Source: Oceanimonas sp. GK1 (GTDB taxonomy: Bacteria > Pseudomonadota > Gammaproteobacteria > Enterobacterales > Aeromonadaceae). From it: a stretch of DNA of 64,000 nt. Shown here piece after piece: positions 21,416 through 45,373 of the stretch (position 1 is the first letter of the stretch; each line of letters starts with the position of its first letter). The notes below the pieces were generated by a model. The model searched no databases. It saw only the letters and a program-made list of their open reading frames with translations, and had not been told where the DNA came from. A program made the position numbers and the translations under genes. The stretch is taken from NCBI RefSeq assembly GCF_000243075.1, contig NC_016745.1:2993001-3057000 (forward strand), written 5' to 3'.

Positions 21416-21772
21416 TCCTGCCGCCGAGTCTGACTAAATACAGGCTGCGCTATCGCCGAAAGGAGGGCAAAGGGAACTGCTTCACGACCGATCAAATGCC
21501 ATGGATGGCATTTGCCGAGCGACCCAAGGAAGGGCTCGAAGCGTGTCGTGAAGCAGTCCCTTTGTCCGACTTCCTCCGCACTCACAGCTCCTCTTTACCC
21601 GCAAACACTCCCCTTAGCCGGCATTAAAGCTTCGCTTTTCACTCCACTCGCCTCTGGCATTCCCCGCCCAGCCAAGTACCATATAGCGCCATGGCCCTGC
21701 GTTGGCCGCGGGCTGTGGCTCAGCCTGCCAGGACGGCCTGTCAACTCACTGATTTATCAGGACAATATAGAA
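21416..21772. other. Intergenic region between the BMP gene and ettA
   Basis: This stretch holds no convincing gene. It contains the long palindromic element at 21468-21564 described separately, then about 200 bases of leader before ettA. Reading frames through it lack family similarity and ribosome-binding sites. Confidence 0.7.
21468..21564. repeat. Covarying palindromic element, copy A
   Basis: The left arm (21468-21488) and right arm (21545-21564) are complementary over 20 bp with one bulged A. They enclose a core with two small hairpins: ATGCCA-TGGA-TGGCAT, and one with loop AGGA in CCCAAGGAAGGG. From ATGCC at 21496 onward, 53 bases match copy B at 45258-45373 with six differences, whereas the outer arms are unrelated in sequence between copies yet self-complementary in both. 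The core matches CANGGANG twice. Confidence 0.85.
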
Positions 21773-23440
21773 ATGGCTCAATTTGTTTACACCATGCACC
21801 GCGTGGGCAAGGTGGTTCCGCCCAAGCGTCATATTCTGAAAAATATCTCCCTGTCGTTCTTCCCCGGCGCCAAAATCGGCGTACTGGGTCTGAACGGCGC
21901 CGGTAAATCCACCCTGCTGCGCATCATGGCCGGCATCGACACCGAGATTGAAGGTGAAGCCCGCGCCCAGCCCGGCATCAAGATTGGCTACCTGCCCCAG
22001 GAGCCCCAGCTCAACCCCGAGCACACGGTGCGCGAGGAAGTGGAAGAAGGCGTGGCCGAAGTGGCCGGCGCCCTCAAGGAGCTGGACGCGGTGTACGCCG
22101 CCTATGCCGATCCGGACGCCGACTTCGACAAGCTGGCCAAGCGCCAGGGCGAGCTGGAAGCCATCATTCAGGCCCACGACGGCCACAACCTGGACAACCA
22201 GCTGGAGCGCGCCGCCGACGCCCTGCGCCTGCCGCCCTGGGATGCGGTGATCGGCAAGCTGTCCGGGGGTGAGCGTCGCCGCGTGGCCATGTGCAAGCTG
22301 CTGCTGGAAAAACCGGACATGCTGCTGCTCGACGAACCCACCAACCACCTGGACGCCGAGTCCGTGGCCTGGCTGGAGCGCTTCCTGCACGACTACGAAG
22401 GCACCGTGGTGGCCATCACCCACGACCGTTACTTCCTCGACAACGTGGCCGGCTGGATCCTGGAGCTGGACCGGGGCGAAGGCATTCCCTGGGAAGGCAA
22501 CTACTCCTCCTGGCTGGAGCAGAAGGATCAGCGCCTGTCGCAGGAAGCCTCTTCCGAAGCCGCCCGCCAGAAGTCCATTCAGAAAGAACTGGAGTGGGTG
22601 CGTCAGAACCCGAAAGGTCGTCAGGCCAAGTCCAAGGCCCGTATGGCCCGCTTTGAAGAGCTGCAGAACCAGGACTTCCAGAAGCGCAACGAGACCAACG
22701 AGCTGTTTATTCCGCCCGGTCCGCGCCTGGGTGACAAGGTCATCGAGGTGGAGCACCTGACCAAGTCCTACGGCGACCGCGTGCTGATCGACGATCTGTC
22801 GTTCAGCATTCCCAAGGGCGCCATCGTCGGCATCATCGGCCCCAACGGCGCCGGTAAGTCCACCCTGTTCCGCATGCTCACCAACGCCGAGCAGCCGGAT
22901 GCCGGCAGCATCACCCTGGGTGATACCGTGCAGCTGGCCTCGGTGGAGCAGTTCCGCGACGCCATGGACAACAGCAAGAGCGTGTGGGAAGAAGTGTCCG
23001 GCGGGCTGGACATGATGCGCATCGGCAACCTGGAAATCCCCAGCCGGGCTTACCTCGGCCGGTTCAACTTCAAGGGCACCGACCAGCAGAAGCGGGTCGG
23101 CGAGCTGTCCGGTGGTGAGCGTGGCCGCCTGCACATGGCCAAGCTGCTGCAGACCGGCGGCAACGTGCTGCTGCTCGACGAACCGACCAACGACCTGGAC
23201 GTGGAAACCCTGCGCGCCCTGGAAAACGCCCTGCTGGAATTCCCCGGCTGCGCCATGGTGATCTCCCACGACCGCTGGTTCCTCGACCGTATCGCCACCC
23301 ACATTCTCGACTACAAGGATGAGGGCAAGGTGGAATTCTTCGAAGGCAACTTCACCGAATACGAAGAGTGGAAGAAGAAGACCTACGGCGCCGAGTCCAT
23401 TCAGCCCAAGCGTATCAAGTACAAGCGCATCGCCAAGTAA
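21773..23440 (+). CDS. ettA: Energy-dependent translational throttle protein EttA (ABC-F)
   Basis: The protein is 555 aa. Two ABC domains carry Walker A motifs GLNGAGKS and GPNGAGKS, signatures LSGGERRR and LSGGERGR, and Walker B runs LLLDEPTNHLD and LLLDEPTNDLD, joined by the long basic linker. EttA binds the ribosomal E site and slows elongation when ATP is low. The ATG at 21773 (MAQFVYTMHRVGKVVPPKR) is the family start; the long upstream frame is not coding. A terminator follows after 20 bases. Confidence 0.95.
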   Translation: MAQFVYTMHRVGKVVPPKRHILKNISLSFFPGAKIGVLGLNGAGKSTLLRIMAGIDTEIEGEARAQPGIKIGYLPQEPQLNPEHTVREEVEEGVAEVAGALKELDAVYAAYADPDADFDKLAKRQGELEAIIQAHDGHNLDNQLERAADALRLPPWDAVIGKLSGGERRRVAMCKLLLEKPDMLLLDEPTNHLDAESVAWLERFLHDYEGTVVAITHDRYFLDNVAGWILELDRGEGIPWEGNYSSWLEQKDQRLSQEASSEAARQKSIQKELEWVRQNPKGRQAKSKARMARFEELQNQDFQKRNETNELFIPPGPRLGDKVIEVEHLTKSYGDRVLIDDLSFSIPKGAIVGIIGPNGAGKSTLFRMLTNAEQPDAGSITLGDTVQLASVEQFRDAMDNSKSVWEEVSGGLDMMRIGNLEIPSRAYLGRFNFKGTDQQKRVGELSGGERGRLHMAKLLQTGGNVLLLDEPTNDLDVETLRALENALLEFPGCAMVISHDRWFLDRIATHILDYKDEGKVEFFEGNFTEYEEWKKKTYGAESIQPKRIKYKRIAK

Positions 23441-23460
23441 GGCTTACCGCTGTGCTGCTC

Positions 23461-23487
23461 AAAGGCCCGCTTCAAGCGGGCCTTTTT
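23461..23487 (+). terminator. Intrinsic terminator after ettA
   Basis: AAAGGCCCGCTT and AAGCGGGCCTTTTT form a strong stem followed by a T-run 20 bases after the stop codon. Confidence 0.93.
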
Positions 23488-23531
23488 ATTGGCGGCTAGA
23501 CTCAGGGCAAGCCACTCACCGGAGCCTCCAT

Positions 23532-23879
23532 ATGACACTGCGTACCTTGATGATGATCCTCTGGCTGCTGCCCGCCCTGGCGGTGGCCGCCCCTCAGGTG
23601 GCGCTGAACGAGCAATCCCACCAGGACTACCTGACTGCCGATAAGGCCCTGAACGAAGCCTATGGCCGGCTGATGGACAAGCTCAGCCCCGAGCGCCGGC
23701 AAAAACTCAAAACCGCCCAGCGAGCCTGGCTGCGCTTTCGCGATGCTCAGGCCGAGCTGGTGTCCTCGGCCTGGCAAGGCGGCTCCCTGCAGCCCCTGGC
23801 TCACAGCGAAGAGCTCAAACGCCTGACCGAACACCGCACGCAAGAGCTGGAGCAGCAGTGGCGGGCGGAAAACCGCTGA
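23532..23879 (+). CDS. LprI/DUF1311 family small periplasmic protein
   Basis: The protein is 115 aa with a signal peptide (MTLRTLMMILWLLPALAVA) and a DUF1311 domain: LNEAYGRLMDKLSPERRQKLKTAQRAWLRFRDAQ. This domain occurs in LprI-type lysozyme inhibitors, usually with several Cys; this protein has none, so inhibitor activity is doubtful. GGAG lies eight bases before the ATG. It sits alone between ettA and azlC. Confidence 0.75.
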   Translation: MTLRTLMMILWLLPALAVAAPQVALNEQSHQDYLTADKALNEAYGRLMDKLSPERRQKLKTAQRAWLRFRDAQAELVSSAWQGGSLQPLAHSEELKRLTEHRTQELEQQWRAENR

Positions 23880-23970
23880 GCCCATACCGAACTGTGATCC
23901 TGCCGCCTCGCCCTGGCGCCCCCCTGTGGTATGCTGTCGGTTTTGGCCCACTCACCCCCACGGGATTCCT

Positions 23971-44148: not shown

Positions 44149-44234
44149 AAAGAAAGAAAACGCACGGGGAAACCCCGGCAAAAAGCAAAGAACACAACGC
44201 GGGGCCATGGGCCCCGTACTACAGGGGGCCGCGG

Positions 44235-45086
44235 TTAACGCAGCAGCGACATCACCAGACCGCTCATCTGGTTTGAGTTGCTCAGCACCGACATGCCGGA
44301 CTGCATCAGCATCTGGTTTTTGGACATATTGGAAGCTTCGGACGCGAAGTCGGCGTCCATAATACGACCCTTGGCGGCTTCACCGTTCTCACGCATATTG
44401 CCCAGGTTGGTAATGGTGTGCTCCAGACGGTTGATATAGGCACCAAATTTTCCTCGAGCTGTACCAATATTGTTCAGCAAAGTATCCATTTTGGTGATTT
44501 CAGCCTGGGAAGTTGCCTGGTCCGACATGGTCGCTGCAGTCCAGGTCGCGCCGACGGCAGTAGCAAGAGCACCAACTTCAGCAGTGGTATCTACAGCTAG
44601 GGTCTCGGCATTACTTGCACCAATTTGAAAATTCACAGCGGCAGCCGCAAATTTGCCAGTGGTACCGTCCAGAAGCTTGGTACCGGAACCGTAACTGGTA
44701 TTAGCCATGATGTTAGCAAGCTCTTCGCCAAGCTGGTTGTATTCAGCATTAATGGCAGCAAACTCAGCAGTACCAGTTGTTCCGTTGGCGGCCTGAGTGG
44801 CCAGATCTTTCATTCGATGAGTGATATTGGTCATTTCATCTAGTGCGCCTTCGGCCGTCTGCATCATGGAAATGGCATCCTGGGCGTTGCGCATGGCCAC
44901 ACCCTGGCCGTTAGTCTGGGCCTGCAGACGCACGGCAATTTGCAGGCCGGCGGCGTCGTCGGCGGCAGAGTTGATGCGAAAACCGGTGCCCAGGCGCTCC
45001 ATGGCGGTGCCCAGCATTTTGTTGGTGCTGTTCAGGGTGTTCTGAGTGACCAGCGAGGTGTAATTGGTATGAATTGACAGGCCCAT
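44235..45086 (-). CDS. lafA: Lateral flagellin LafA
   Basis: The protein is 283 aa, short like lateral flagellins, with only the D0/D1 coiled-coil ends well conserved ([19 protein letters not shown] at the start; [21 protein letters not shown] at the end) and a small variable middle. AAAGGAAACG precedes the ATG; the frame open upstream to 45221 is leader. The middle third (about 44450-44790 in the DNA) is visibly AT-richer than its neighbours, which fits recombination of the surface-exposed part. It forms the filament outside the cell. Confidence 0.93.
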
Positions 45087-45131
45087 GATCGTTTCCTTTT
45101 TAAAAGCATGATTGGCTTGGTTCACTCTTTT

Positions 45132-45159
45132 AAAACGGCGGCTGATTTGGGCAACTTGA
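45132..45159 (-). promoter_or_regulatory. Sigma28-type promoter of flagellin lafA
   Basis: On the minus strand TCAAG, 15 bases, then GCCGTTTT approximates the sigma28 consensus TAAAG-N15-GCCGATAA. It lies about 45 bases from the lafA start codon. The same element heads fliD. FliA (LafS) encoded in this locus is the expected user. Confidence 0.65.
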
Positions 45160-45257
45160 AAGAAAAAATAAAAATTTTTGTGAGGGGGAAAACGAAAGGG
45201 GTGAGGGGAAAAACGTAACAAAAAATGAAGGTAACGGCCGACAATGCCGGACTTTCA

Positions 45258-45373
45258 CAAAGCGACAGCAGGGATTACCGTAACCGACCGTCACATGCCA
45301 CGGACAGCATTTGCCGAGCGTCCCACGGATGGGCTCGAAGCGTGTCGGTGGAGGTAACCCTGCTGTTGCTTTG
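45258..45373. repeat. Covarying palindromic element, copy B
   Basis: The left arm (45258-45288) pairs with the right arm (45344-45373): CAAAGC, one G-U pair, ACAGCAGGG, TTACC, a 4-by-4 internal loop and CCGAC. The enclosed core repeats that of copy A with six changes in 53 bases and keeps loops CGGA and CGGA. The outer arms share no sequence with copy A beyond CAAAG/CTTTG and CGAC ends. It stands between the stop of the 332-aa gene (45388, minus) and the lafA promoter. Confidence 0.85.

Follow-up and report, generated by a model that had tools for sequence, protein, structure and literature searches.

A dispersed palindromic repeat with twin GGA loops in Oceanimonas sp. GK1 and its possible role in docking CsrA

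The element in the window and in the genome

The 64,000 nucleotides of Oceanimonas sp. GK1 analysed here (contig NC_016745.1, positions 2,993,001 to 3,057,000; hereafter the window) hold two copies of a small palindromic repeat, copy 1 at 21457–21576 and copy 2 at 45255–45377, both on the forward strand. An earlier inspection of the letters without database searches (the sequence-only reading) had pointed to a 53-base core that differs at six positions between the copies, and to outer arms that are unrelated between the copies while each left arm pairs with its own right arm. The cores, at 21496–21548 and 45295–45347, do differ at 6 positions, and the pairing of the arms was borne out by RNA folding, with z-scores of −10.1 and −5.5 and none of 200 dinucleotide shuffles being as good. 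In copy 1, the left outer arm (21468–21488) pairs with the right one (21545–21564), and between them lie hairpin 1 (21493–21514) with the hexaloop AUGGAU at 21501–21506 and hairpin 2 (21516–21538) with the hexaloop AAGGAA at 21526–21531, the GGA of both being unpaired in the predicted fold. The arms of copy 2 (45257–45280 and 45353–45373) likewise pair with each other. Its hairpin 1 (45292–45313, loop ACGGAC at 45300–45305) has two broken pairs, 45299/45306 and 45294/45311, and does not form in the predicted fold, and the GGA of its hairpin 2 (45315–45337, loop ACGGAU at 45325–45330) is predicted to be paired. Copy 2 ends 10–14 nt from the stop codon of a gene on the reverse strand (45388–46386).

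Both copies are members of a dispersed repeat with a length of 100–125 bp. A BLAST search with copy 1 against its own genome returned 41 matches, some of them partial, and a degenerate pattern of the core with up to three mismatches gave 36 matches (14 forward, 22 reverse), compared with none for the reversed control pattern at the same tolerance. From the two lists we drew 36 places that all carry the core, a lower bound as further copies exist, and these comprise 8 copies of a subfamily A, 24 of a subfamily B, one hybrid (L009), two copies with an enlarged hairpin 1 (L020, L057) and one truncated copy (L036). In A as in B, the outer arms are conserved, and those of the two window copies differ because copy 1 belongs to A and copy 2 to B. 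For this genome, the proposed pattern of unrelated arms over a conserved structure therefore dissolves into two subfamilies, and the rebuilding of the stem that had been suggested is not needed to explain the window copies; in distant relatives, both ideas fare better (see below). A subfamily C combines A-like arms with a different core (32 matches to a C query, some partial), and hence copies mix arms and cores. Going by the coordinates, 14 of the 36 places have an inverted C copy next to them, in most cases at a distance of about 50 nt. The same inverted B/C pairing is seen in a distant genome, where B-like and C-like elements alternate in a tandem array with a period of about 300 bases (L191, 598–1616).

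A covariance model, termed R1, was built from the 24 B copies, copy 2 of the window being one of them. Within the window it scores 129.4 bits at copy 2 and 90.7 bits at copy 1, the sole other match reaching 14.5 bits. The whole genome gives 58 hits at E ≤ 0.001 and 89 lines at E ≤ 1, which include C, antisense and partial matches and of which, by coordinates, about 50 look like sense A or B copies. Such sense copies look sparse in one part of the chromosome (G000:C1, 1.62–2.60 Mb), and genes for t44 and 6S RNA (L014, 415–500; L016, 2508–2690) are found at a distance of about 1 kb or less from two copies.

Fold, twin loops and the selected strand

The predicted fold consists of a long outer stem and a three-way junction with two short hairpins, whose ANGGAN hexaloops are closed by C-G. 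Among 83 aligned copies from this genome and from named relatives, hairpin 1 reads CANGGANG in 78, and two others carry an insertion at this place. In the 81 copies without an insertion, A, G, G and A are each kept in 80–81, and the two N positions vary (first N: T38, G26, A10, C7; second N: T52, A16, C12, G1). Hairpin 2 reads CANGGANG in 82 of the 83 copies, 56 rows having been fetched with a pattern that demanded CANGGANG, and in subfamily C either hairpin does so in 19 of 20 copies. The GGA of hairpin 1 is wholly unpaired in the predicted folds of 23 of 24 B, all 8 A and 19 of 20 C copies.

The sequence-only reading had proposed selection on a folded RNA or on a cruciform, and the base pairs argue for the former. 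With RNAalifold on plain MAFFT alignments, compensated changes were found in 18 of 43 pairs in B, 13 of 43 in A and 13 of 36 in C. In the alignment of the 83 copies, which was fitted to the model and thus leans to the model's structure, 97.6% of the cells are paired, compared with 89.5% in shuffled and 33–40% in slid controls, and 27 pairs have changed on both sides versus 14.4 in the shuffles. The feared pattern of many copies with conserved arms and no covariation was accordingly found in its first half only: arms are conserved within the subfamilies, but covariation is present.

To compare the strands, the outer arms were aligned as plain DNA inverted repeats and the mismatch types were read on the strand that carries the GGA loops. 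This count covers 91 of 148 elements, the other 57 having been dropped for lack of the two loops or of an arm alignment with a score of 14, and it yields 2362 Watson-Crick pairs, 106 G.T, 12 A.C and 255 other mismatches, numbers which are not independent since the copies are related. By group, G.T to A.C is 21:1 in B, 7:0 in A, 2:1 in C, 42:4 in the named relatives, 10:3 in the distant genomes G112 and G300 and 24:3 in other distant ones. Predicted structures of the reverse complement support the GGA strand in B (5 G.T, 13 A.C) and do not discriminate in A (14 G.T, 5 A.C) and C (20 G.T, 7 A.C), and the consensus energies favour the GGA strand in all three subfamilies. Together, the covariation and the excess of G.T over A.C indicate that selection acts on the RNA of the GGA strand, while a cruciform alone would leave the asymmetry between the strands unexplained.

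Spread, position and turnover in relatives

R1 hits are present in all 23 genomes of the genus, with 2 to at least 87 hits per genome, and the same survey found them in both of the other genera of the family that it covered and, elsewhere in the order, in 2 of 16 genomes. The further copies that a covariance-model search of the genome and of related genera had been expected to recover were thus found, with base-pair covariation, and the repeat is anything but absent from relatives. A wider draw of the order comprised 295 genomes from 99 genera, with 12 candidates scored per genome, and gave R1 hits in 45 genomes and in 15 genera; at this depth, the 16 genomes of one genus (family f1, genus g20) gave none. 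The exact core pattern was found in 62 stretches on named contigs of Oceanimonas, Oceanisphaera and Zobellella and in one gamma-proteobacterial metagenome-assembled genome, and a 61-nt core query matched nothing in plasmid and phage records. In the excerpts of the literature that were searched, which lie outside subscription papers, we found no published description of the repeat in Oceanimonas.

Gene context in the genome of GK1 was taken from a home-made codon-based gene caller. None of its genes overlaps any of the 36 places, so that the intergenic placement claimed for the window copies extends to all of them. Eighteen places lie between convergent genes, 11 are tandem in sense and 5 tandem in antisense orientation, 2 have one side uncalled and none is divergent. 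In the named relatives, 72 copies (counted at R1 ≥ 60 bits) are distributed over 31 convergent, 15 tandem sense, 13 tandem antisense and 9 divergent gaps, with 4 at an edge; the other gaps of at least 150 nt at the same loci are 9 convergent, 43 tandem and 41 divergent.

The individual sites differ between species. Both flanks of copy 1 were found in 14 of 22 relatives and compared by eye: G002 combines an inverted C copy with a B copy and agrees letter for letter with the named O. marisflavi locus L167; G005, G008, G015, G019 and G021 have the element or a large piece of it; G001, G016 and G018 have an apparent remnant of a B right arm; and the remaining five show shorter similarities or nothing. 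Both flanks of copy 2 were found in seven relatives, six of them without CANGGANG on either strand, and G022 appears by eye to hold a degenerate element. An insertion of about 50 nt in hairpin 1 occurs at L020, L057, L130 and L135, in more than one species, and is missing from L129, the orthologue of L057; as such, an altered copy seems to have spread. Presence and absence as well as swaps between species, the spread of this variant and the range of copy numbers within the genus all speak for the mobile element that the sequence-only reading had considered. Like miniature inverted-repeat transposable elements (MITEs), the repeat is multicopy, intergenic and palindromic, with both filled and empty sites; none of the sites compared offered a clean recent insertion in which to look for a target-site duplication. 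At L028, at L143 and at loci of G003, G005 and G021, the elements have taken up other small palindromic repeats or been replaced by them.

The arms of distant copies were read in 40 stretches chosen from the hit list of the wider draw. In G285, G262, G040, G087 and G147, they are mostly alike within a genome and fall into one or two types. The picture is different in G112, read at 8 loci, and in G300, read at 4 loci of which one holds two like tandem copies: here nearly all copies have arms of their own around the shared core, so that the surprise of the sequence-only reading holds on a wider scale, and with it the possibility that stems are rebuilt. The arms pair over 29–46 bp in G112; in G300, those of L249 are imperfect and L262 lies within a rearranged array.

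For one G112 site, orthologous copies were located in G319 and G321 by their flanks. In the three pairwise comparisons, which represent one site in three species, both partners have changed in 6, 8 and 7 pairs and a single partner in 0, 1 and 1, while 3, 1 and 2 pairs are broken. Two-sided changes hence dominate, which means that the arms change in place and pass through few half-changed states; this suggests that, besides selection on pairing, one arm is copied onto the other. The insertion of a core into pre-existing palindromes finds no support from this set, as the orthologous arms change in place at this one site in three species. An origin of the copy-specific arms by inverted duplication of the target was also considered, and by eye neither arm was seen at empty sites in congeners at site A of G112, where the intergenic DNA is too diverged for this to carry weight. 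At the G112 site, the flanks alone led to seven elements (G319: three; G314: two; G318 and G321: one each), each of which contains the motif A(N)GGA(N)G twice; in the predicted folds, both GGAs are apical in five, one is in G319_A3 and none in G319_A1.

Related families and candidate functions

At the gathering thresholds of Rfam, nothing was found in the window, including Ysr224 (RF02770; 70 bits). For TwoAYGGAY (RF01731; 43 bits), copy 2 reaches 16.4 bits (E 5.3), copy 1 has no match up to E 10, and none of 20 loci of this genome attains the gathering score. Since they remain below both scores, the window copies cannot be filed as members of either family. However, distant relatives do reach them. 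Three of 20 distant loci pass for TwoAYGGAY on the GGA strand (L222 with 51.7, L221 with 45.9 and L248 with 43.1 bits; two in G112, one in G300), where R1 gives 60.6–64.0 bits, and four of the 20 pass for Ysr224 (L251, L252, L253 and L256, in G147 and G218). Six weak Ysr224 hits also fall on subfamily C copies of the GK1 genome, and all of these matches to Ysr224 run antisense to the GGA loops. The view that no named family applies thus stands for the window copies and falls for their relatives, and the window copies are relatives of TwoAYGGAY and Ysr224 that probably work alike.

Rfam places TwoAYGGAY and rsmX in a common clan (CL00106). TwoAYGGAY resembles our element in that an external stem carries two hairpins whose loops are of the AYGGAY type; the corresponding ANGGAN layout under one outer stem is found here, with the loop of hairpin 2 often predicted to be paired. 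It differs in that the present element is high-copy, dispersed and mobile. TwoAYGGAY has been proposed as a CsrA-binding RNA (PMC4333381), and its original table lists the human gut, gamma-Proteobacteria and Clostridiales (PMC2864571). Ysr224, which differs by an Rfam model opposite in strand to the GGA loops, is catalogued as a small RNA (sRNA). This 'sRNA' is apparently a dispersed repeat whose model follows the strand antisense to the loops, which may explain why a survey counting every instance ranks it among the most frequent sRNAs (PMC9029176).

Several other systems share single traits with the repeat. CsrB, RsmX, RsmY and RsmZ also present GGA in hairpin loops, with more than one site per RNA. 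They are dedicated sRNA genes with many sites, unlike the many dispersed copies with two sites each seen here. REP and BIME sequences are small intergenic palindromes as well, often in inverted pairs, but our element is longer and has a three-way junction. A link to Y1/RAYT transposases, the only transposase family searched, was rejected, as the only PF01797 match (C1:2520082–2520411) is about 32 kb from the nearest listed R1 hit. The attC sites of integrons have conserved outer boxes and a variable apex; here the layout is the opposite, with a conserved apex and varying outer arms.

From the computed features, i.e., family, copy number, covariation, strand asymmetry, loop pattern, position and turnover, we infer transcription, CsrA binding and an effect on the mRNA. 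From our point of view, the best reading, in which belief and doubt are about evenly balanced, is that of a mobile TwoAYGGAY-like RNA at the 3' ends of genes that would dock CsrA. The strand with the GGA loops would be transcribed and would represent the selected product, the elements mostly being found at the 3' sides of genes. With a spacing of about 25 nt, the two loops could clamp one CsrA dimer. An mRNA tail with a copy would thus carry docked CsrA, all copies together could form a distributed sink for CsrA, and the long stem would shield the 3' end of the mRNA. The pairing of the arms would be selected as RNA, and since the one orthologous set shows few half-changed pairs, the sequence of one arm would probably at times be copied to the other.

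The motif itself agrees with this proposal. CANGGANG matches the published pattern of CsrA sites and each element has two such motifs; according to PMC7652899, the site selected by systematic evolution of ligands by exponential enrichment is RUACARGGAUGU, mostly in six-base loops, and the loop bound by RsmE is ANGGAN with a variable N. The genome encodes a single csrA, whose product has L4 and R44, and three CsrB-like loci (G000:C1:287947, 876289 and 1607222), one of them above the Rfam cut-off; in the stretches fetched for these loci, the RNA strand contains ANGGA 12, 11 and 7 times.

Several observations weigh against CsrA docking. CANGGANG is found twice in one of the three CsrB-like loci and is absent from the other two, so that the Csr RNAs of the host mostly rely on different closing bases. 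In hairpin 2, the predicted folds leave the whole GGA unpaired in no more than 9 of 24 B copies, in 5 of 8 A copies and in 15 of 20 C copies, since the preceding UCC can pair with it, and the fold of copy 2 leaves neither GGA free, compared with both in copy 1. The CCC/GGG pairs of hairpin 2 change jointly to CAC/GTG or TAC/GTA, which supports an open loop, although the pairing of this hairpin is still a weak point. Further, CsrA does not explain the long stem or the conserved bases of the junction, distant R1 hits are biased toward GGA loops because R1 was trained on them, and for the 9 divergent and 13 tandem antisense copies among the 72 in relatives, sense transcription driven by a neighbouring gene is not given. 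Even so, docking of CsrA is the best-supported function that the sequences suggest, and we would defend it as readily as we would doubt it.

A serious but less than even prospect is that the element is a MITE-like palindrome of the YPAL or ERIC kind whose role at the 3' end is purely that of an RNA stem, be it an mRNA stabiliser, a nuclease site or a block to read-through, with the GGA loops serving the mobilising machinery, a tertiary fold of the RNA or another protein instead of CsrA. Position on the 3' side, long stable stems and turnover between species would all fit this, as would a junction that is conserved beyond the loops and a hairpin 2 whose GGA is so often predicted to be paired. 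By the descriptions available in part, YPAL/RU-2, ERIC and other MITE-like repeats are similar in size, dispersal, long stems and presence or absence (PMC2229807, PMC2267715), and YPAL, of about 168 bp, was recently mobile and possibly affects upstream transcripts (PMC2229807). Those parts of the descriptions do not mention twin GGA hexaloops (PMC2229807, PMC2267715), however, and a pure stem has no need for two invariant A-GGA loops with a free N amid changing arms and stems; nor does it account for the link to TwoAYGGAY, a family of the CsrA clan.

We consider it improbable that selection and copying act at the level of DNA, with a transposase or recombinase recognising a cruciform or a folded single strand and with palindrome correction during replication keeping the arms perfect. 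The near-perfect arms of about 30–45 bp in G112, the excess of two-sided over one-sided changes in the one orthologous set, the inverted C-B pairs and the alternating tandem array at L191 would fit such a process. A DNA-only process, however, predicts equal numbers of G.T and A.C, and not the observed 106 versus 12, or 10 versus 3 in G112 and G300. Lastly, bidirectional intrinsic terminators between convergent genes, to which the 18 convergent places of the 36 might point, are very hard to reconcile with a flank consensus that by eye, no terminator scan having been run, has no U-run directly 3' of the stem, and with the separate terminator-like hairpins with U-runs seen by eye downstream of some copies (L007, L009, L025, L049).

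Overall, an abundant, mobile repeat that is selected at the RNA level and related to TwoAYGGAY and Ysr224 is real, and its high-copy dispersed form, the link to a family annotated in antisense and the behaviour of its arms are new to us. More tentatively, and rather doubtful as a whole, one could speculate that TwoAYGGAY, the antisense-annotated Ysr224 and the unnamed repeats of Oceanimonas and other gamma-Proteobacteria form a superfamily of mobile RNA elements which colonised the 3' regions of mRNAs as a distributed CsrA decoy or docking system, tunable by copy number, and which retained only the twin GGA loops and some bases of the junction while the outer stem of each copy was rewritten in place by arm copying. 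If this were true, a binding site for CsrA would be packaged in a mobile 3'-region element with tens of copies per genome, and mobile DNA could tune the activity of CsrA. It would further unite the proposed CsrA-binding TwoAYGGAY and the frequently annotated Ysr224 in one family and would suggest that the model of Ysr224 describes the wrong strand. The orthologous copies, in turn, let the co-evolution of palindrome arms be followed directly.

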